Source: Oligoflexales bacterium
GTDB taxonomy: Bacteria; Bdellovibrionota_B; Oligoflexia; Oligoflexales; Bog-1112
Assembly (NCBI GenBank): GCA_013215275.1
Contig: JABSRF010000009.1
Coordinates: forward strand, 1 to 37,579
Length of the DNA stretch: 37,579 bases
Direction of reading: 5' to 3'
Positions within the stretch are counted from its first letter, which is position 1; each line of letters opens with the position of its first letter. A program made the translations under genes and the position numbers. Below are positions 203 to 18,852 of the stretch, piece by piece. A model generated the notes under the pieces. The model was not told where the DNA came from. It searched no databases and was given only the letters and a program-made list of their open reading frames with translations.

Positions 203-1864
203 CTAAAAGAATAATACATCTTTCGGTCCTGCTTTTTCCACTGGATCCTCTTCATTTGCGACCGGCTCACTTGGCACAGGGCTCGGAGGTGCCGATTGAG
301 GCTCAGCAGGAGCAAGGGGTGGCTCTTTAACATGCTCTGCAGGCTTGCTAGCCTTGGGAGGGGGGCTTAGGGTTTCACCTGCTTCTATCACGGGTGCAAT
401 ATGGGCAACATTTTCGGAGCTTTGAGCTGTTTTGGTGACAATGTTATTGAGCTTACTGACCATTTCATTGGTTAGGTTCTCAATCTGTGTGAGAGGAACA
501 CTTGCTGCTTCAATCTCCTGCCGGGTAATGTCCTGAAACTGTAAGCTCAAAATGATTTGATCGATATTGTGAGCGACCGATTCAGAGCTTAAAACAGAGC
601 TTTCAACCAGCTGAGAGAACACCTCTGTAGAATCCTTTGCGGTGCTTAGTAAGAGATCAACTGCTTCGTCAACTGACTCCTTCTTACTTTTGGTCTTCTT
701 CAAGTTGTCTGTCAAAGATAGAGAGATATCCTGGACAGAATCGTTCACCTTGCCAACAATTTGGGTAATATCGTTAGATGCTTGGTTTGTTCTATCAGAT
801 AGTTTTCGAACTTCTTCGGCAACCACGCTAAAGCCTCGTCCATGCTCCCCTGCTCGAGCAGCCTCGATGGCTGCATTCAGAGCCAAGAGATTGGTTTGGT
901 CGGAAATGTACTGAATGTCCTCGGTGATCTTGTTGATTGTTGCTGTGTTTTCCAAGATAGCCTCTATGGATGTTGAGTACTCAACGTTTAAGCGACTATT
1001 CTCGTCCAGCATCTCAGTCATTTCCTTCAACAAAGTTAAGGCGTTTTCAAGAACGGAGGATAAAGAAGCGTGATCCTTACTGCTCTCTTGTCCCATGGAC
1101 ACCTTACCTGAAAACTGCTTGTTAATTTCATTGGATTCCGCTAAGTGTTCTTGAGCTTTTTCGTAAATAAAGCGAACCTTATCACCAATTTCAATCGCCG
1201 AACTTTCTGTATGGTCTATGACTGACTTTAACTGTGATTCAATATTGGGAACTAAATCTAATATTCTTCTAAGCAAAGTCTCTTGAGTTGCTAGTTGTTC
1301 ATCCCGTTCAGAAAGTTTTCCTTCCAGTTCTTTGATTCTAATTTCAAGTAAATTGATCGTACTGCGAGGTGCATTATTCAATGTTTGGTTTTCAGCTTTT
1401 AAGCCAGACAGTTCCTCACCGAGTTTATCGCTGTTGCTCTTGATGGCTTCTAGCTCAAACTGAGCTTTGGAGTGACTGTTTTCGGTCTCTTTTAGCTTAG
1501 CTGTGAGCTCCTCAAGCTTAGACTCAAGGTCTGCTTTTTCGGTGGCAAAGTCTTTTTCAGCTATTTTTCTTACCAGGCTCAAATTAACTGGGCTATTCTC
1601 TTGGTCCTTTGCTTCTAGAGCTAGGATCTTGCGCTTAAGCTCTTCAATGTGCCTTTCTTTGCCTTCTAGGCTGCTGGTCTCATCTTGTCTCTGGTGAGAC
1701 ATACGTAAGCATAGGCTACTTAGGTAAGCCCAGGTTGCAAGAGCTAGCAAGCTTGCCATCCACGTTGGTAAGTTCATCTCAGAGATGGGGTCGATGAGTA
1801 CAGGAATTAAGGGTATTAATCCTGCAAGCACTAGTAGCTGAGTGGTTTTATTATCGTCTGACAT
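203..1864 (-). CDS. Methyl-accepting chemotaxis protein without a periplasmic sensor domain
   Basis: This is an inner-membrane chemoreceptor of 553 residues that would signal to CheA/CheW. Two hydrophobic segments (about 9-24 and 33-53) are separated by only about eight residues, so there is no room for a periplasmic ligand domain. A long predicted coiled coil (about 58-215) follows. The conserved MCP signalling hairpin lies around residues 300-380 and includes [20 protein letters not shown] and [11 protein letters not shown] see no HAMP domain. The last 60 residues are rich in proline, alanine and glutamate and end in DVLFF. The start ATG has an AGGA ribosome site seven bases upstream. The gene sits downstream of flbD-motAB on the same strand, but 142 bp separate it from the TPR gene, so it may have its own promoter. 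The signal it senses is unknown; the coiled coil or a partner protein may do the sensing. The family call is firm and the specificity is open. Confidence 0.93.
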
Positions 1865-2006: not shown

Positions 2007-4352
2007 TTACTGCCAAAGTAGCTCGGTCTGAGTTCTCGATTTATCGAGCCTGGTTTTAGCGTAGTTAACCTCGGGGAATAAGCTCGGATCCAGTTCTGCG
2101 AGGTGAGACCAAAGCTGTTTGCTAATTGACGAGCTAGGTTCTATTTTGCGGATTGCCTCTGAAACCTGCCATATTAATGGCACTGTTATACTTTTCTGTG
2201 GCCAATCAAATCGGTCGAGCCACAATCTTCCATAGGTTTTACTTAAGCTTGGGTGAATCCCGACTTCTGCTTCGAGCTCCAGTAAAGCTTTGGAGCATGA
2301 GAGACTCTTACTAAACAGTAATGGAAAGCGGCTTTGTACCAGTGATGTGGTTTTTTGCCAGATCTTCGCAATGGGTGTTTTAGTCTGTTTATGGGTATGA
2401 AACCATTTTGAAAGGATTGGATAGCTTATTTCGCAGAGATCCTTTGCATCTTCGTGATTCCAGCTAAAAGTTGCTTGGTAAAGCCAAGAAAGGTGGAGAT
2501 AGTATAATTTAGACTTGAGTAAACGATTTACGAACCCACGTATTCGGGTTGATTCCGAGAGTTTATAAGATTCCTTTCGTTTAGAGATTAAGTTGCTTAG
2601 CTCACGTTTGTTGGCTGCGCTTATGCCTCTAAAATCTTGGATTTCTGTGAGGTAAAGACTGCTTAATAAGAATTTTTCTAGGCTTTGCTTTTCAATGTTT
2701 TTGAATGCACCCCAGAACTCAGCAGCTTTACTTGCGAGGCCAATTTCCATATAGGCTTTAAAAAGCTGTGCTTTTCTTTTGGATGAGATTTTGGTGAATA
2801 GGTCTTTTCGGTTGTTTTCAAAGAATAAGATGGCTCTATGATAATCTTTTTCCAGAAGGTAGGCCTCCAAATAGGAAGATTTGACCTCGATTAGGGATGG
2901 AATGTACTGTGCAAGGTATCGTGAATTAGGAAACCTTTTATAAAACTCCTTTACTTTCTCGACAAATTCTTTACCTCTTTCTCTTTCCCCATAGGACATC
3001 ACTTCGCAGCTCCAAGCCAATTCGACCACCTGCAACGGGGCATGGGAGTCTCGGGTTTCGTTTAGAGTGCTGCGAGCATGTCTGACATTATTCCCTAGGT
3101 ATTGTGGAAGGCTTAAGCATGCTCTCCTAACTTTTGCAACAAATGCTGCATCTGAGTTTGGAAACTCATGCTCAACGCGAAAGTATGCCAATTTTGACTG
3201 CTTTAACCATTCGGTATTCGTTTTCTTTAAACTGAATTGAGCAAGGTAAGCATCTGCTATTCTCAAAGAAGCCCAGGAGCGAAATTCTATTGATAAACTC
3301 TCTTTAGCATGCTTATGGGATATGCTTTTTATTCCATAATGCAACGCTTTCTGAGATTCTTCAAATTTTCCCATCCAGAAAAGAGCTTCTCCTCTGAGTA
3401 TAAAGCTAAGCGGTAGTATGGATCCAATTTCATGATTGATGACTTGGCTTAAATGGTAGGCCTCTTCTGCCAATTCATACTTATTTAGATCAAAATAGAT
3501 ATCTCCAATGCGGGTAAAAGCATAAGCTGCTTGCTCTGGATTGTTCTCCTGCCTGATGATGGTGTCGATCTCTCTAGCAGCCTTTAGATACTGTCGGTCT
3601 TTGATCCACCCCTCTGCAATTAGCCTTCGAAAGTGGGGTCTATAATCCTTACGAGCTGTTTTCCTCAGGAAGCTCAACCCCTCTTGTGCTGCCATATGTG
3701 CAGCAGAGTATCGGTCAAATTCATGATAGATTGCCGCTAGGTTATAAATAGCAGCTGGTGCAATCAGATCAAGCTGTGGGTCAGGAATATCTTTCTTCTT
3801 GATAAAAGCCCAATTTAGAAAGGTTGCTGTATTTGAATAAGTCAGGCGAACTTCTGAGCGAAAAATGTCTCCGTTGAACATTTTTCGGATACCTTTCGAA
3901 ATTTTTAGATACGCAAGTCCAATGAAATAATCGTTTCTACGATGGTATTCAAAATTTTTACCATACCTAGCTCGTGCTGATAGCCAGATCTTCCTAGCCT
4001 CCTCCCAATTTTTTTGTTTGAAAAGAATCCTTCCGTAGTTCATATGCTGAATAGGCTTGTCTCGTCCCGGTGTGGAAGGCATATCCTCAGGCTTATCACC
4101 CAAAAGATGGTTCACAGGAAAGACTGCCTTTGGGAGTGGAAAAGGGTATCTCCAAAAAAACTCATTGGAGATCTGCCTTTCTGCCGGCTCTATCGAAAAG
4201 TCGCCGATGATTTGGTAATTCTTTACAATTTCGGAAAAATTCGCATACGCAGGAGGCATCGGTTTAGCTGTGCCAAACTCATTGAAGGCAAATGAGAAAG
4301 CAACAACCCAAAGGTATCGAGGGCAATTCAACCATTTGGTCAAAACCAACAT
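2007..4352 (-). CDS. Exported TPR-like helical repeat protein, possible flagellar motor accessory
   Basis: This 781-residue protein has an N-terminal hydrophobic stretch (about 12-28) after a Lys/Arg region, consistent with a signal peptide, so it is probably periplasmic. The rest is helical with TPR-like units, clearest around residues 270-345 (for example AYAFTRIGDIYFDLNKYELA and RGEALFWMGKFEESQKAL). No catalytic motif was recognised. It starts 34 bp after the motB stop on the same strand, so it is likely cotranscribed with flbD-motA-motB. Known biology: Campylobacter PflA is a periplasmic TPR protein of similar length needed for stator placement. Whether this is a homologue or only an analogue cannot be told by eye. 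An alternative is a generic cell-envelope TPR scaffold. The gene itself is certain; the motor role is inference from size, export and position. Confidence 0.85.
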   Translation of the reverse strand: MLVLTKWLNCPRYLWVVAFSFAFNEFGTAKPMPPAYANFSEIVKNYQIIGDFSIEPAERQISNEFFWRYPFPLPKAVFPVNHLLGDKPEDMPSTPGRDKPIQHMNYGRILFKQKNWEEARKIWLSARARYGKNFEYHRRNDYFIGLAYLKISKGIRKMFNGDIFRSEVRLTYSNTATFLNWAFIKKKDIPDPQLDLIAPAAIYNLAAIYHEFDRYSAAHMAAQEGLSFLRKTARKDYRPHFRRLIAEGWIKDRQYLKAAREIDTIIRQENNPEQAAYAFTRIGDIYFDLNKYELAEEAYHLSQVINHEIGSILPLSFILRGEALFWMGKFEESQKALHYGIKSISHKHAKESLSIEFRSWASLRIADAYLAQFSLKKTNTEWLKQSKLAYFRVEHEFPNSDAAFVAKVRRACLSLPQYLGNNVRHARSTLNETRDSHAPLQVVELAWSCEVMSYGERERGKEFVEKVKEFYKRFPNSRYLAQYIPSLIEVKSSYLEAYLLEKDYHRAILFFENNRKDLFTKISSKRKAQLFKAYMEIGLASKAAEFWGAFKNIEKQSLEKFLLSSLYLTEIQDFRGISAANKRELSNLISKRKESYKLSESTRIRGFVNRLLKSKLYYLHLSWLYQATFSWNHEDAKDLCEISYPILSKWFHTHKQTKTPIAKIWQKTTSLVQSRFPLLFSKSLSCSKALLELEAEVGIHPSLSKTYGRLWLDRFDWPQKSITVPLIWQVSEAIRKIEPSSSISKQLWSHLAELDPSLFPEVNYAKTRLDKSRTQTELLWQ

Positions 4353-4386: not shown

Positions 4387-5196
4387 TCAGAGCGACCCTG
4401 CTGAGTCAGAGTCGTAGTGAACATGAAACTCTATTCGGCGATTTAGCTTTCTTCCTGCAGCTGTGCCATTGTGGGCAATTGGCTTAACGTCGGCATAGCC
4501 AGCAGCGCTGAGTCGAGTTTGAGGAAAGTAGTGTTGTCTTATCATGTATTTGATGACATGAGTGGCACGTAATGCGGAAAGGTCCCAGTTGCTGTAATCT
4601 CCTTTAGGAGGGATAGAGTCGGTGTGGCCCTCCACGGTAACATCTCTGCCGAGCGACTTTAAAATATTGACGACTTTATCAAGGTCCTTGCGAGCAGCCC
4701 GTCTAACCCTGATGTCTCCTGGTTTGAAAAAATGCCTGGCAAGAAGCTGAAGTTTAAAGCCTTTTTCAGTAGGGTACACTTGTACAATCCGCTCATGGCC
4801 CGTTGTTTTTTTATCAGGGTATTTTTTGGGTCCGTATAAGCGTTCTTCGAGTTCAACTTTGACCCGATCCATATCTTCATCGATAATTTTTACCTGTTTT
4901 TTTGTGGAAGGATATTTTTGGACAACGGGAGGTGAGACTTCCTCTCCACGAAAATGTTCGAAAATTCCGAACCCATGCTCCGTTGGCCCCTTCTTACGAT
5001 CCAGAGGGATGTCATCCAAAGGGGTGTTGAAGCTTTCTTGCATGGATCCAGCAGTTCTCTGAACTTGCGGCTCACCCCCCTCTTTAAGCGCAAAAAGTAC
5101 CACAAAGACGGCAAATAGTAGAGTTACCATATCTGCGAAACTCACAAGCCAGCGCTCATGGTTTTCAAATTCAGGGCATTTCTGTTTCTTGCCCAT
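4387..5196 (-). CDS. motB: Flagellar motor stator protein MotB
   Basis: MotB is the peptidoglycan-anchored stator subunit that couples ion flow to flagellar rotation. The 269-residue protein has one N-terminal membrane helix (about 19-38) containing the expected ion-binding aspartate, D22, in SFADMVTLLFAVF. A linker follows, then a C-terminal OmpA-like peptidoglycan-binding domain with VEGHTDSIPP and the LSALRA helix. It starts 17 bp after motA with a GAGG ribosome site. The short N-terminus and helix resemble the MotD/PomB-like branch. I cannot assign proton or sodium specificity from sequence alone. Confidence 0.95.
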   Translation of the reverse strand: MGKKQKCPEFENHERWLVSFADMVTLLFAVFVVLFALKEGGEPQVQRTAGSMQESFNTPLDDIPLDRKKGPTEHGFGIFEHFRGEEVSPPVVQKYPSTKKQVKIIDEDMDRVKVELEERLYGPKKYPDKKTTGHERIVQVYPTEKGFKLQLLARHFFKPGDIRVRRAARKDLDKVVNILKSLGRDVTVEGHTDSIPPKGDYSNWDLSALRATHVIKYMIRQHYFPQTRLSAAGYADVKPIAHNGTAAGRKLNRRIEFHVHYDSDSAGSL

Positions 5197-5213: not shown

Positions 5214-5972
5214 TTAGTCTTCAGAGCCTTTTTGGCTTACAAAAATACCTAATTTTTCTTGAATTACCTTAGGGTTTAGACCTGAAAGGATGCCTTCTAC
5301 TCCAATGACGACCATTTCCCTAGCCATATAGTCTAATTTTGCTTTGCGTTTGATCTTTTTTCCAATAGGGATAAAGAAGATATTGGAGAAACCTACTCCA
5401 TATAGGGTTGCTACGAACGCAATCGCAATACCTGGTCCAATCATTTCTGGCTTGTCTAGATTTTCCATAACGTGAATGAGACCAAGTACCGCTCCCAAGA
5501 TTCCGATGGTCGGAGCAATTGCACCGCAGTCTTCCCAGAAGTGGGCATAGACTTCTTCTTCTTCCATGGTCACGTGCTGAGCAGTTTCGAGGGTATCACG
5601 GATAATATTAGGGTCTGTTCCGTCGACCGCCAGTCTGACTGCCGTCTTTAAGGGTTCATAGCTAAGCCCCTCTCTTTTTTTCTCGAGTGCCAGTATGGAC
5701 TCTTTACGAGCTGTTTGAGCCAGATCGATAATATCAGTAAGAATCTGATCGGGGTTTGCACTTGGGTTTTTCACCCAGGTGCCTACGGCTTTCATAGCAC
5801 CAATAATATCTGGTAGGGTATAGGCCACCATCATTGAACCCGCCATTCCGCCAATAACGATGAAAAAGGCGGTAATCTGGAGGATCGAGGAAACGTGACC
5901 TCCCTCCAATATTAAGCCGACAATAATACAAGTTAATGCGAAAACTGGGCCGACGAGGCTCGTAATATCCAT
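5214..5972 (-). CDS. motA: Flagellar motor stator protein MotA (PomA/MotC-like)
   Basis: This is the membrane subunit of the stator, which forms the ion channel with MotB and pushes on the rotor protein FliG. The 252-residue protein shows four hydrophobic segments (about 5-20, 29-50, 150-172 and 182-203). The conserved proline lies in the third one (GAIAPTIGILGAVLGL). A charged cytoplasmic loop of about 100 residues lies between segments 2 and 3, as in the family. Length and sequence fit the shorter PomA/MotC type rather than E. coli MotA (295 residues). It sits between flbD and motB on the same strand, a standard flagellar arrangement. Confidence 0.95.
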   Translation of the reverse strand: MDITSLVGPVFALTCIIVGLILEGGHVSSILQITAFFIVIGGMAGSMMVAYTLPDIIGAMKAVGTWVKNPSANPDQILTDIIDLAQTARKESILALEKKREGLSYEPLKTAVRLAVDGTDPNIIRDTLETAQHVTMEEEEVYAHFWEDCGAIAPTIGILGAVLGLIHVMENLDKPEMIGPGIAIAFVATLYGVGFSNIFFIPIGKKIKRKAKLDYMAREMVVIGVEGILSGLNPKVIQEKLGIFVSQKGSED

Positions 5973-14316: not shown

Positions 14317-14901
14317 ATGGTAAAATCTTTAATTATCGTATTATTTTTATCGTGCTTTGGCTTCTCGATCTGGATTTTTTTAGAAAGAGATACCCGTTCC
14401 TTGAGAGAGAATATTGAAAAAGCTCCCTCGCACTTGAAGCCGCGAGTGATCATGGAGGACTTTCACTTAAGAAGGTATGAAAAGCATACCCAGTATCACT
14501 CTATGACAGCGGCCCATGGAGCTTTTCTTGCTCCCAATCAGGTTGAGCTTTCTGGCAGCGTAGAAGGCTGGAGGCTCAGCAATGGAAAGAAGCAGACAGT
14601 AAGAACGCACAAAGCTGTTGCATTTTTCAATTCTGATAGCCTAGCAGAACTCATGAAGCGGGCTGAGTTAGAGCGAACTAGGTTGACAGGTTTTGTTGAA
14701 ATTGATTACAGCGATCACCTACTGCAAACTGAAGAAGCAGAGTATACCGCTAGAGATGAAAAAATTGCAGGCACTCAGTTTGTCCGTGTTGACGGGCCTA
14801 ATCGCTGGTTTACTGGCAAGGAGGGCTTTCGGCTGTTTGTAAAAGAGGAAATATTAGATGTTTTTGGTAAAGTTCGGGGAATGCTTAAACCAGATGATTA
14901 A
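14317..14901 (+). CDS. lptC: LPS export ABC transporter periplasmic protein LptC
   Basis: LptC is the bitopic inner-membrane protein that passes LPS from LptB2FG to LptA. The 194-residue protein has one N-terminal membrane helix (about 4-23), then a periplasmic beta-jellyroll region. Segments such as AAHGAFLAPNQVELSGSVEG and YSDHLLQTEEAEYTARDEKI fit the LptC fold. Sequence identity in this family is low, so much of the assignment rests on the topology, the length and the lptA-lptB neighbours. An AGG ribosome site lies about six bases upstream. The gene overlaps lptA by eight bases. Confidence 0.92.
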   Translation: MVKSLIIVLFLSCFGFSIWIFLERDTRSLRENIEKAPSHLKPRVIMEDFHLRRYEKHTQYHSMTAAHGAFLAPNQVELSGSVEGWRLSNGKKQTVRTHKAVAFFNSDSLAELMKRAELERTRLTGFVEIDYSDHLLQTEEAEYTARDEKIAGTQFVRVDGPNRWFTGKEGFRLFVKEEILDVFGKVRGMLKPDD

Positions 14902-15652
14902 ATGCCTACAAATCCCTCTCTTGTTCGGAATCATTCTGCTGTCTCACCAGTCAGCCTATGCTGACCTAACTGATGACTTGGAGGATTTGGATCCCAAGAG
15001 CTCTAAGGAAAGTCCAGGAGGTGAGTCCAATGGTCCACCTACCTCTAAACCGGGCACAAGTAAAAAGAATCGGGCTCCACAGGCCCAGGAGCAAGGCACT
15101 ATCGAGCTTGAAAAAGGGCGAGAGCAAGCAGAAGATAACAAGGCTCCTCAGCCAGACCTTGAGGAGCCTAAAAAGCGTAAGAGGAAAGCAAAGCCCGGTG
15201 GAACACCGCAAACCCAAGGAGATGAAAAAAAACTTCCAGTCATTTTTGAAGGAGATCAACTCTCAGGCATTAAACGATTGGGCACGATTGAACTGCATCA
15301 AAACGTTAAAGTGAATCAGGGAGACTTCAACTTGGAGGCAGAAAATGCGAAGGTCTTTTTCGACACCAACAGCGACGAAGTGGATAAAGTGATTGCTAAA
15401 GGCTCAGTCAAGATGTCTAAGGTAGACCCTCAAACAGGTGAGTTAATCAGGGCCTACAGCCAGATTGCCGAATTTGATGCAATCAATCAGAAAGTAGAGT
15501 TAATTGATAAAGCTAAGCTTATTCGGGGAGAAGACGTCATAAGGGGGGAGGTCATTGTCTATGACCTGAAAACAGGAAGGTTAAAGGCCAGCAAAGTCAA
15601 AGGAGTGGTCAAACCCCAGGAGACTCAAGAAGCTGAACCCGAAAAAGATTAA
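14894..15652 (+). CDS. lptA: LPS transport periplasmic protein LptA with long charged linker
   Basis: LptA forms the periplasmic bridge that carries LPS to the outer-membrane LptDE complex. I place the start at ATG 14894, inside the last codons of lptC, because it gives a clean signal peptide (1-23, ending SAYA). The track start at 14858 would add 12 non-signal residues. The OstA/LptA domain spans about residues 114-245, with repeats such as GTIELHQNVKVNQGDFNLEA. Between signal and domain lies an unusual segment of about 90 residues rich in Pro, Lys, Glu and Gln, including KKRKRKAK. E. coli LptA (185 residues) has no such linker. Coupling to lptC and lptB supports the call. Confidence 0.92.
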   Translation: MIKCLQIPLLFGIILLSHQSAYADLTDDLEDLDPKSSKESPGGESNGPPTSKPGTSKKNRAPQAQEQGTIELEKGREQAEDNKAPQPDLEEPKKRKRKAKPGGTPQTQGDEKKLPVIFEGDQLSGIKRLGTIELHQNVKVNQGDFNLEAENAKVFFDTNSDEVDKVIAKGSVKMSKVDPQTGELIRAYSQIAEFDAINQKVELIDKAKLIRGEDVIRGEVIVYDLKTGRLKASKVKGVVKPQETQEAEPEKD

Positions 15653-15674
15653 AAAAGGTGAAAGAGGGTTAAAT

Positions 15675-16400
15675 TTGGTTCAGACATTACGTGCAGAAAA
15701 GATTTGCAAAGCTTTCAAAGGGAGGGAAGTTGTCAAATCAGTGTCCTTTAGTGTGAAAACGGGTGAGGTGGTTGGCCTTCTTGGCCCTAATGGAGCTGGG
15801 AAAACAACAAGTTTCTATATGGTGGTCGGCCTGCTTTTTCCTGGTTCTGGCGAAGTCTATTTGGAACAAAATCGCATCACTGGAATGCCCATGCACTTGC
15901 GTGCGAAGCAGGGTATTAGCTACCTACCGCAAAATATGTCTATCTTTAGAAAGCTCAGTGTCGAGGAGAACTTGCTTGCGATCATGGAGGTCACCAAGGT
16001 TCCCAGAAGCGACCGCAAGAAGTTGCTTAAAGACCTTTTAGACAAGTTTCAAATTGGGCATATCGCAAAATCTCTAGGAGCAGCGCTTTCTGGCGGAGAA
16101 CGCCGTAGAGTGGAGATTGCACGCTCACTGATTATTAAGCCTAAGTTTCTGCTGCTGGATGAACCTTTTGCAGGTGTTGATCCAGTTACGGTGCAAGAGA
16201 TACAGGGAATTATCGAGTCACTCAGACACGAAGGCTTAGGTGTTTTAATCACGGATCATAATGTACGGGAAACTTTAGGTAGTTGTGGAAGGGCTTATGT
16301 GTTGTCCGCTGGACAAATTATTGCTCATGGAAACCCAGATGAAATTGCAAAAAATCAGGTTGTCAGGGAGACCTACCTCGGTGAAAAGTTTAAGCTATAG
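15675..16400 (+). CDS. lptB: LPS export ABC transporter ATP-binding protein LptB
   Basis: LptB is the ATPase that powers LPS extraction from the inner membrane, working as a dimer with LptF and LptG. The 241-residue protein has every nucleotide-binding motif: Walker A GPNGAGKT (37-44), Q-loop in SYLPQNMSIF, signature LSGGE (138-142), Walker B FLLLDEP (158-164), the LptB-typical FAGVDP and the H-loop ITDHN. The start is TTG 15675 with GAGGG six bases upstream; no nearby ATG is available. lptF and lptG are not in the window, as is usual. The gene lies 22 bp after lptA. Confidence 0.97.
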   Translation: MVQTLRAEKICKAFKGREVVKSVSFSVKTGEVVGLLGPNGAGKTTSFYMVVGLLFPGSGEVYLEQNRITGMPMHLRAKQGISYLPQNMSIFRKLSVEENLLAIMEVTKVPRSDRKKLLKDLLDKFQIGHIAKSLGAALSGGERRRVEIARSLIIKPKFLLLDEPFAGVDPVTVQEIQGIIESLRHEGLGVLITDHNVRETLGSCGRAYVLSAGQIIAHGNPDEIAKNQVVRETYLGEKFKL

Positions 16401-16487
16401 TTTTAATAAATAATTCTAAAGCCTACTTTCGGTTCCTATTTCTTACCTGTATATTAAAGCTGTTCAGATCAACCATCGGAGAGATTT

Positions 16488-17945
16488 ATGGCTCTGGATT
16501 TACGGCAAAGCTTAAAACTATCTCAACAACTGCTGATGACTCCACAGTTGCAGCAGGCTATAAAACTTCTACAGTTGTCGAGGATTGAGCTAGAGCAATT
16601 TGTTTCTCAGCAGCTTGCAGAAAACCCTATTCTTGAAGAGGCTTCCGAAAGCCAAGACAATGCAGAAAAAGATTCCGTCGAGCGAACTTCTGATGACGTG
16701 ATGCAAGACCAGCTCAGCTCAGTATCGAGTATTGTTGATGATGTAGCAGAGGGTGAAAAAAAAGAAATTGATTGGGAGGCTTTGTCCCGGGTACAAGAAG
16801 CTTCGAGTCAGCCTGCATCTGCAAATAAAAAGAGCCATGATGATGAACATCCGAACTATGAGAATTTATCGAGCAATCGAAAAAGCTTGACTGAGCACCT
16901 CATGACTCAGATCGGAGAATCTGAGCTTGATCAGGATGAAAAAAATTTGGCAGCAATCCTCATAGGCAACCTCTCAGAAAAAGGTTACTTAGACCTTGAT
17001 TGGGATGAGTTCTGTAAAGAACAGGATATTGATGTGGATTATGCCGAGGGAGTTTTAGATACGCTACAAAGGCTTCACCCCCCAGGAATCGCAGCTCGCA
17101 GCTTACAAGAATGTCTGTTGATTCAAATCAGAGAGCATCATTTAAAAAACGGGGTTGTGGAGAAGGTTGTCAGTCAGCATATGAAAGAGCTAGAAATAAG
17201 AAACTATGCTGTGATTGCAAAATCTATGAAGATTAGCTTGGATGAGGTGGTCAAAAATGCTGCAACCATCGCAGAGCTTGACCCGATTCCTGCTAGAGAG
17301 TTTGGGGGGGACCCAACCTATCACGTTATCCCAGACGTTTATGTTTTCAAAATGTCTGGAAAGTGGGTGGTCAGCTTGAATGATGAGGGCTTACCAAATT
17401 TGAGGATTAATAGCTTTTACAAAGAGATTGCTCAAGATCGCGCAAATGGAAAAGACAAAGAGTATGTTCAAGAAAAGCTAAAATCTGCTCAGTGGTTGAT
17501 TAAGAGTATCCAACAAAGGCAAAAAACGATTTTTAAAGTGACTGAGTGTATTGTTGAGAAGCAAAAAGACTTCTTCGAAAAAGGGGTGCAGTTTTTAAAG
17601 CCGATGGTCTTACGAGATATTGCTGAAGACATAGGCATGCATGAGTCGACCATTAGCCGGGTAACCACTAGTAAATATGTGCATACTCCAAGAGGGATTT
17701 TCGAACTAAAATATTTTTTCAACAGTTCTGTGGCAAGAGCTGGCGGAGGCGATGTTGCCAGTGAGTCGGTAAAGGTGATGATTAAAGGAATTGTTGATAG
17801 TGAAAGCCCCCAGAAGCCTTACTCGGATCAAAAGATTGTTGCTATCTTAGAGGAGAAAGGGGTGAGGCTTGCTCGCCGCACAGTTGCAAAGTACAGAGAG
17901 CAGCTAGGAATCCTTCCTTCAAGCAAACGAAAAAAATATTTTTAG
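16488..17945 (+). CDS. rpoN: RNA polymerase sigma-54 factor RpoN
   Basis: RpoN directs RNA polymerase to -24/-12 promoters that need AAA+ activators. The 485-residue protein has the Gln/Leu-rich region I (LKLSQQLLMTPQLQQAIKLL), an acidic region II, the core-binding domain, the HTH segment (MVLRDIAEDIGMHESTISRV) and the RpoN box ARRTVAKYRE (462-471). A GGAGA ribosome site precedes the ATG. The 87-bp gap after lptB contains a TATATT that could be a -10 element with a poor -35 partner, so rpoN may have its own promoter besides readthrough. In flagellated relatives sigma-54 often drives flagellar genes, but I saw no clear -24/-12 site here. Confidence 0.98.
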   Translation: MALDLRQSLKLSQQLLMTPQLQQAIKLLQLSRIELEQFVSQQLAENPILEEASESQDNAEKDSVERTSDDVMQDQLSSVSSIVDDVAEGEKKEIDWEALSRVQEASSQPASANKKSHDDEHPNYENLSSNRKSLTEHLMTQIGESELDQDEKNLAAILIGNLSEKGYLDLDWDEFCKEQDIDVDYAEGVLDTLQRLHPPGIAARSLQECLLIQIREHHLKNGVVEKVVSQHMKELEIRNYAVIAKSMKISLDEVVKNAATIAELDPIPAREFGGDPTYHVIPDVYVFKMSGKWVVSLNDEGLPNLRINSFYKEIAQDRANGKDKEYVQEKLKSAQWLIKSIQQRQKTIFKVTECIVEKQKDFFEKGVQFLKPMVLRDIAEDIGMHESTISRVTTSKYVHTPRGIFELKYFFNSSVARAGGGDVASESVKVMIKGIVDSESPQKPYSDQKIVAILEEKGVRLARRTVAKYREQLGILPSSKRKKYF

Positions 17946-17955
17946 AGGTCGCAAG

Positions 17956-18852
17956 ATGAATGCAACTCATCAAGACAAACCCTTAATCATATTTGTAACA
18001 GGTATTTCTGGGGCTGGCTTGAAAACCGGGATCAATGCCTTGGAAGACTCAGGGGTCTATTGCATTGATAACCTACCTCTTGAGATGATTCAGCCGACCT
18101 TAGAGTTGATTGAGAAGGAGACGATTGTCTTAGAAGGTGGGGTTGCCTTTGGCATTCATGTGAGAACGGCAGAGGATATCCCCGCCTTCCTTCAGCTACA
18201 CTCACAGTTGTCTGCAAAATATCGCCTAGATATTCTTTTTCTTACTGCCGAGGATTCAGTGCTGGAATTACGTTACTCGGCAAATCGTCGTCGTCACTAC
18301 TTTTTGCAAGAGGGTAGAAGGCTCCAAGAGGCGTTTAACTTTGAAAAAAGTCTAAAGGCTTCTTTAGAAGAAAAAGCTGATATTGTCATAGACACCAGCC
18401 AGTTATCGCCCCATCAATTGACCCGGATGATCGAGCATCGCTACAAGGATGATGTGGTGCAGAGGAATCTGTATGTCATGTTAACTAGCTTTGGCTTTAA
18501 ATACGGCCAATGCCGGCCGGCAGATAGCTTGTTTGATGTGCGGTTTCTAAAAAACCCTTACTTTGTCCCTGACTTAAAAGATAAAACGGGGCTTACTCAA
18601 GAAGTGCAAGACTATGTATTGATGGATGAAAATGCTGAACACCTGCTCCAGAAGCTTATAGACTGGCACCGGTGGATTCTTCCTCAATACCTAAATGAAG
18701 GGAAGCATTACTTTCGGGTGGGAATAGGTTGTACCGGAGGACGTCATCGAAGTGTCAGTATTGTTGAAGAGCTGTATCGAGCATTGAATACTGAGCCAAT
18801 GGAGCATATCGTCGTCAGTAAAAACCACCGTGATATAAAAATCCAGGGATAA
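17956..18852 (+). CDS. rapZ: RapZ family protein (YvcJ) with degenerate Walker A
   Basis: RapZ in E. coli binds GlcN6P and guides RNase E to the small RNA GlmZ. The 298-residue protein aligns over its full length: ALEDSG.YCIDNLP near the N-terminus, VRFLKNP, and the C-terminal GIGCTGGRHRSV that forms part of the ligand/RNA domain. The usual GxSGSGKS loop reads GISGAGLKT (residues 16-24) in an ungapped alignment, so the invariant Lys is Leu and the next Ser is Lys. The codons (GGC TTG AAA ACC) are clear. ATP binding may therefore be lost or altered while the C-terminal domain stays intact. It follows rpoN by 10 bp; hpf and ptsN, often found between them, are absent. Confidence 0.92.
   Translation: MNATHQDKPLIIFVTGISGAGLKTGINALEDSGVYCIDNLPLEMIQPTLELIEKETIVLEGGVAFGIHVRTAEDIPAFLQLHSQLSAKYRLDILFLTAEDSVLELRYSANRRRHYFLQEGRRLQEAFNFEKSLKASLEEKADIVIDTSQLSPHQLTRMIEHRYKDDVVQRNLYVMLTSFGFKYGQCRPADSLFDVRFLKNPYFVPDLKDKTGLTQEVQDYVLMDENAEHLLQKLIDWHRWILPQYLNEGKHYFRVGIGCTGGRHRSVSIVEELYRALNTEPMEHIVVSKNHRDIKIQG

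Follow-up and report, generated by a model that had tools for sequence, protein, structure and literature searches.

The stator operon and its TPR gene

The DNA analysed here (the window) is a stretch of 37,579 nucleotides from an Oligoflexales bacterium (assembly GCA_013215275.1, contig JABSRF010000009.1, positions 1 to 37,579, forward strand). On its minus strand, motA- and motB-type stator genes are followed by an open reading frame at 2007-4352 (-), which begins with ATG and encodes 781 amino acids. The gap between the end of motB (4387) and the start of this gene (4352) is 34 bp. A Pfam search of the protein returned TPR_1 (5.5e-8) and TPR_2 (2.9e-7), both better than the curated cut-offs. 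The initial annotation had described an exported, helical TPR-like protein of 781 residues, encoded 34 bp behind motB, and the open reading frame, the Pfam matches, a signal-like N-terminus and an AlphaFold2 (AF2) model all agree with this description. The features of the locus are as follows.

203..1864 (-): gene for an MCP-type chemoreceptor-like protein, found after the TPR gene in many relatives (MCPsignal 9e-32)
2007..4352 (-): putatively secreted TPR-superhelix protein, 781 aa, proposed second flagellar motor scaffold (ORF, Pfam TPRs, relatives in 32 genomes, AF2)
2010..2030 (-): conserved C-terminal tail with Trp780 (E-x-L-W), low pLDDT (alignment, AF2)
2046..4058 (-): TPR/alpha-solenoid, residues 99-769 (AF2 helix pairs, Pfam TPRs)
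2295..2297 (-): codon of invariant Cys686 (alignment)
2433..2435 (-): codon of invariant Cys640, candidate pair with Cys686 (alignment)
3006..3008 (-): codon of invariant Cys449 (alignment; position matched in homologues of sister family f12)
3117..3119 (-): codon of invariant Cys412, candidate pair with Cys449 (26/26 sequences; equivalent Cys in f12 homologues)
4059..4238 (-): conserved, mostly non-helical N-terminal segment, residues 39-98, IGDFS...ER.IS..FFWRYPF (alignment, AF2)
4260..4352 (-): signal segment, about residues 1-31, with a hydrophobic helix at 13-25 that is low-confidence in AF2 (hydrophobicity)
4387..5196 (-): motB-type stator gene with MotB plug and OmpA/peptidoglycan-binding domain (Pfam/NCBIfam)
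5214..5972 (-): motA-type stator gene (NF006583 equivalog over cut-off; Pfam MotA_ExbB)

The sequence features of the protein are those expected of a protein exported through a signal-like N-terminus. A hydrophobic segment lies near residues 13-30, with the hydrophobicity maximum at residue 13, and the AF2 model contains no other membrane-like helix beyond it. Stronger signal segments and SPase-like sites are seen in relatives, and cleavage of the window protein likely occurs after ...FGTA. The mature protein would contain only four cysteines (412, 449, 640 and 686), all of them invariant; their even number fits an oxidising periplasm, and Cys412 with Cys449 and Cys640 with Cys686 are candidate disulfide pairs.

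Distribution of the family and its link to flagella

Homologues were searched for in 56 related whole genomes, 43 of which belong to the same order (Oligoflexales). The TPR gene was found in 32 of these 43 and is therefore not a chance reading frame; the full-length copies are 31-41% identical, a few copies are cut by contig ends, and the best E value outside the source genome is 8e-177. With genomes counted as flagellated when they have a strong FliG_C match (E below 1e-15), the gene is present in 32 of the 35 order members with a flagellar FliG and in none of the 8 without it. The corresponding Fisher p of 1e-6 carries no phylogenetic correction and, since the genomes are related, overstates their independence, so that it is indicative only. 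Gaps in the assembly or low completeness seem to account for the three flagellated genomes without it: G030 lacks motA as well, motA of G033 lies at the end of a contig, and the completeness of G032 is 72%.

The direct upstream neighbour of the TPR gene is motB in 19 of the 30 genomes in which this could be decided (the window and 18 relatives). The other 11 form coherent lineages (f6, genus g20 of f9, and f2), in which motAB, where found, sits away from the TPR gene. In 8 of these 11 the TPR gene lies ~7-45 kb from the flgB-flgC-fliE-fliF-...-fliI-fliJ-flgY cluster. Nearness to flagellar genes, on which the initial annotation had partly based its proposal, extends to many relatives. Lineages in which motAB and the TPR gene lie apart have, behind motB or near motA, a small ORF that is lipoprotein-like and contains a C-E-W-Y motif (L122:6146-6463, L125:2461-2805, L121:3548-3961).

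The sister family f12 (probably Silvanigrellales) encodes a divergent homologue of ~924-1044 residues. Single-sequence searches detected it weakly (best E 5e-12); alignment of the f12 and Oligoflexales profiles with hhalign covered 671 columns at 99.8% and E 2e-28, with the N-terminal FIADF motif among them, and shows homology over the greater part of the f12 protein. Both branches share a conserved C-terminal Trp followed by at most 3 residues, which is invariant in the 26 Oligoflexales sequences and stands at the C-terminal end of all 10 f12 homologues. Invariant cysteines number four in Oligoflexales and six in f12, with the first pair at matching places. The f12 homologue is encoded within one or a few genes downstream of a small gene whose product resembles FlbD.

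A separate group of ORFs with FliG_C (590-790 aa, mostly over the cut-off) adjoins MotA/ExbB-like ORFs at G009:C46, G012:C80, G012:C145, G017:C95, G023:C149 and G036:C338; G009 is without a flagellar FliG. A FliG-like and MotA-like pair acting outside the flagellum is possible.

Predicted structure and comparison with PflA

The AF2 model of the window protein, built with 26 sequences, is a confident all-helical superhelix (mean pLDDT 88). It consists of a signal helix, the segment 39-98, a superhelix of helix pairs ending at residue 769, and a tail of low confidence that carries the conserved Trp; no beta strand of at least three residues is present in the model. Segment 39-98 contains the invariant residues D51, F52, W67 and Y69, is mostly extended but without strands, and is predicted with a pLDDT of ~90.

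In a fold search of the PDB with this model, the best bacterial match was the C. jejuni scaffold chain 9hmf_K (rank 3, E 4e-7, TM 0.29), and 9hmf_L was found at rank 36. From their lengths, we take 9hmf_K (773 residues, residues 16-788) to be PflA and 9hmf_L to be PflB. The matches, at TM 0.29 or below, are mixed with eukaryotic solenoids that score equally (Ctr9, OGT, Ski3, IFT-A). Given the low TM and the rank of 9hmf_K among generic eukaryotic TPR solenoids, the fold alone is no proof of homology. A PDB sequence search with the window protein gave zero hits, and PDB searches with family profiles returned designed or generic TPRs only, with no solved motor protein and none of the C. jejuni scaffold chains among the matches. 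Homology of this kind can rarely be detected by sequence among TPR proteins.

PflA has a published layout of an AMIN-like beta-sandwich, a linker that wraps PflB and 16-17 TPRs (PMC12222027, PMC11870540). In the window protein, segment 39-98 occupies the place of the beta-sandwich, which is itself absent: the AF2 model has no such strands and Pfam returned no AMIN hit. The disordered linker is absent too, as residues 41-98 have a pLDDT of ~90 and no long low-confidence stretch precedes the TPRs. PflA's layout is found instead in a second TPR protein of the same genome, which has 799 aa and is encoded ahead of flgB on contig C257 (G000:C257:7960-10356; L126:7960-10356 +). In its model, a signal helix is followed by a beta domain of seven strands (35-125), which a disordered linker (~131-256) connects to a TPR superhelix, and a relative's copy gives a sub-threshold AMIN match (E 0.007). 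The C257-type protein occurs in 34 of the 35 flagellated order members and in 0 of the other 8. From its modelled architecture, it is a strong candidate for a PflA outside Campylobacterota.

The initial annotation had likened the window protein to PflA, and much of that likeness stands: it is a PflA-sized, secreted-looking TPR superhelix that is encoded in a stator operon and restricted to flagellated relatives, and the proposed structural comparison did return the PflA-sized 9hmf chain as the best bacterial match. It is very unlikely, however, that the protein is itself the PflA orthologue, that is, the spoke. The TM of that match is 0.29, and the beta-sandwich and the linker are both missing here and present in the C257 protein, whose gene heads the flgBC-fliE cluster in Oligoflexales and f12. 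The profiles of the two families are weakly alike (62%, E 8e-5). The fold search does not separate the families, since the C257 protein gave the same picture in it as the window protein. We rejected PflA orthology once the C257 gene with the PflA layout had been found. With PflA's architecture absent from one protein and present in the other, the window gene represents a second, distinct family of putative scaffold proteins.

Other motor parts are encoded in the same genome. The cluster order in Oligoflexales and f12 is C257-type gene, sigma54-type regulator, flgB, flgC, fliE and fliF, the names from flgB to fliJ being assigned from sequences and gene order. Directly behind fliJ is a candidate for an E-ring protein of the FlgY/MotE type (G000:C257:17532-18287; L044:7533-8291 +), with MgtE_N over the cut-off and an N-terminal membrane-like helix. 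Its gene closes the Oligoflexales cluster and is present in 35 of 35 flagellated order members, as a fragment only in two. FliL is encoded in the genome as well. The initial annotation had also proposed a check for FlgP; an LPP20 search of the genome, a weak test with this single Pfam family as proxy for FlgP and no positive control among the control genomes, found no FlgP-type protein. Elsewhere in the window, genes for LptC-like and LptA-like proteins, an ABC ATPase, sigma-54 (rpoN) and RapZ lie in a row at 14317-18849 (+); the window contains the sigma-54 gene, and the flagellar cluster on C257 includes a gene for a regulator of the sigma-54 type.

Possible roles in the flagellar motor

We consider it probable that the window protein forms a soluble TPR superhelix in the periplasm and is a structural part of the Oligoflexia flagellar motor, where it most likely helps to hold stator units in place. 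It would be produced along with MotA and MotB, and its most likely binding partners are the periplasmic part of MotB, the spoke protein or both; in this way the stators would be held around the rotor. The motor may then contain three scaffold layers: the FlgY/MotE-like protein as E-ring, the C257 PflA-type protein as spokes, and the second TPR protein near the stators. With an E-ring protein of the FlgY type, a PflA-type protein and FliL all encoded beside a TPR protein of the stator operon, the simplest reading is a second periplasmic scaffold at the stators. Several observations speak against it: the fold matches are of a kind common to TPR solenoids, no solved motor protein was matched by sequence, motB does not adjoin the gene in 11 genomes, and the conserved chemoreceptor-like gene next to it may indicate another role.

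Other explanations of the locus appear less convincing. TPR proteins are frequently chaperones or adaptors, and the window protein shares an operon with motAB, so it could be an assembly factor or chaperone for MotB/MotA and not a lasting motor part, comparable to the role once proposed for MotE towards MotC. We regard this as unlikely. Conservation along the length of ~750 residues, the invariant cysteines and the conserved tail suit a structural part better, and known comparable TPR proteins near stator genes are motor parts or stator binders (PMC12222027, PMC10954123). Still less probable is a polar organiser that connects the motor to the cell pole or to the chemoreceptor-like protein of 203-1864. 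MCP-like homologues are encoded near the TPR gene in 14 relatives, and at loci with motAB in another place (L009, L014, L016, L017, L022) the MCP-like gene still comes after the TPR gene. However, co-regulation may alone explain this gene order, and the 203-1864 protein, with two close hydrophobic N-terminal segments, a cytoplasmic-type signalling region, a long coiled coil and no evident sensor domain, has no periplasmic domain large enough for a periplasmic partner. We give the least credence to a TPR protein of general envelope function, either YbgF/CpoB-like or unrelated, which is simply co-transcribed with motAB. A TIGR02795 (YbgF) match of 15.5 bits points in this direction but is far under the cut-off of 90.1 bits, and YbgF/CpoB (Tol-Pal) identity was rejected on this score; moreover, none of the 8 order members that lack a flagellar FliG has the gene, although each of them has an envelope.

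A periplasmic scaffold at the stators has parallels in known systems. In Sinorhizobium meliloti, MotC is a periplasmic TPR-type protein, and rotation needs MotC and MotB (PMC10954123, PMC13023049). MotC is encoded downstream of motB and is needed for rotation (PMC10954123); the window gene, too, is directly downstream of motB (in the window and 18 relatives), and a FlgY/MotE-type protein is encoded in its genome as well. The genome analysed here differs in also having a PflA-type protein with an N-terminal beta-sandwich, a comparison drawn from descriptions. In C. jejuni, PflA and PflB serve as stator anchors (PMC12222027). The window protein resembles PflA, which forms the spokes, in its signal segment, TPR superhelix, size (~780 residues) and best bacterial fold match. 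By analogy with PflB, at the proximal disk rim, it is a large TPR protein with a PflA-type partner in the same genome and would be expected near MotB. PflB is defined by a transmembrane segment with a cytoplasmic N-terminus and by an antiparallel beta-pair (PMC11870540). Neither was seen in the window protein: its N-terminus is signal-like, as in relatives, and the AF2 model lacks the strands for a beta-pair in the stretch from mid-protein to the C-terminus. We therefore do not claim PflB membership. Bdellovibrio bacteriovorus WP_011165745.1, a PflA-like, flagellum-linked TPR protein noted in 2018, likewise has a signal segment followed by TPRs and is encoded in a flagellar operon (PMC5758724). 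It differs in having ~1000 residues of TPR and in its lineage, and is set beside the window family by description.

We infer that the window protein is located at the motor, contacts MotB and the spoke and anchors the stators. It would serve as Sinorhizobium MotC or Campylobacter PflB does, with no claim of orthology by sequence. In role, PflB is the closest precedent, and the window protein may fill its place. A more specific and tentative proposal, which we hold to be less likely than not, is that Oligoflexia have a spoke-and-rim scaffold like that of PflA and PflB, in which a PflA-type spoke is combined with a non-orthologous secreted TPR family at the PflB position, its members having probable disulfides and a tail for docking at the C-terminus.

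In a domain-wide survey, flagellum-linked TPR proteins were mostly PflA-like and one per genome (PMC11870540). In the present genomes, two separate families of flagellar TPR proteins are found together throughout flagellated Oligoflexales and in f12. By the literature examined, a second, distinct TPR family that belongs to the stator operon, has a signature of invariant cysteines and a conserved tail at the C-terminus, and accompanies a PflA-type protein across Oligoflexia is new. If this family holds stators, a two-layer stator scaffold exists outside Campylobacterota, which would help to decide how high-torque motors evolved, and its genes become candidates for unassigned ring densities, one of them the inner-membrane ring of Bdellovibrio motors (PMC5758724). 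If the spoke-and-rim proposal is true, a stator-holding rim either evolved repeatedly or has an earlier origin than so far assumed.
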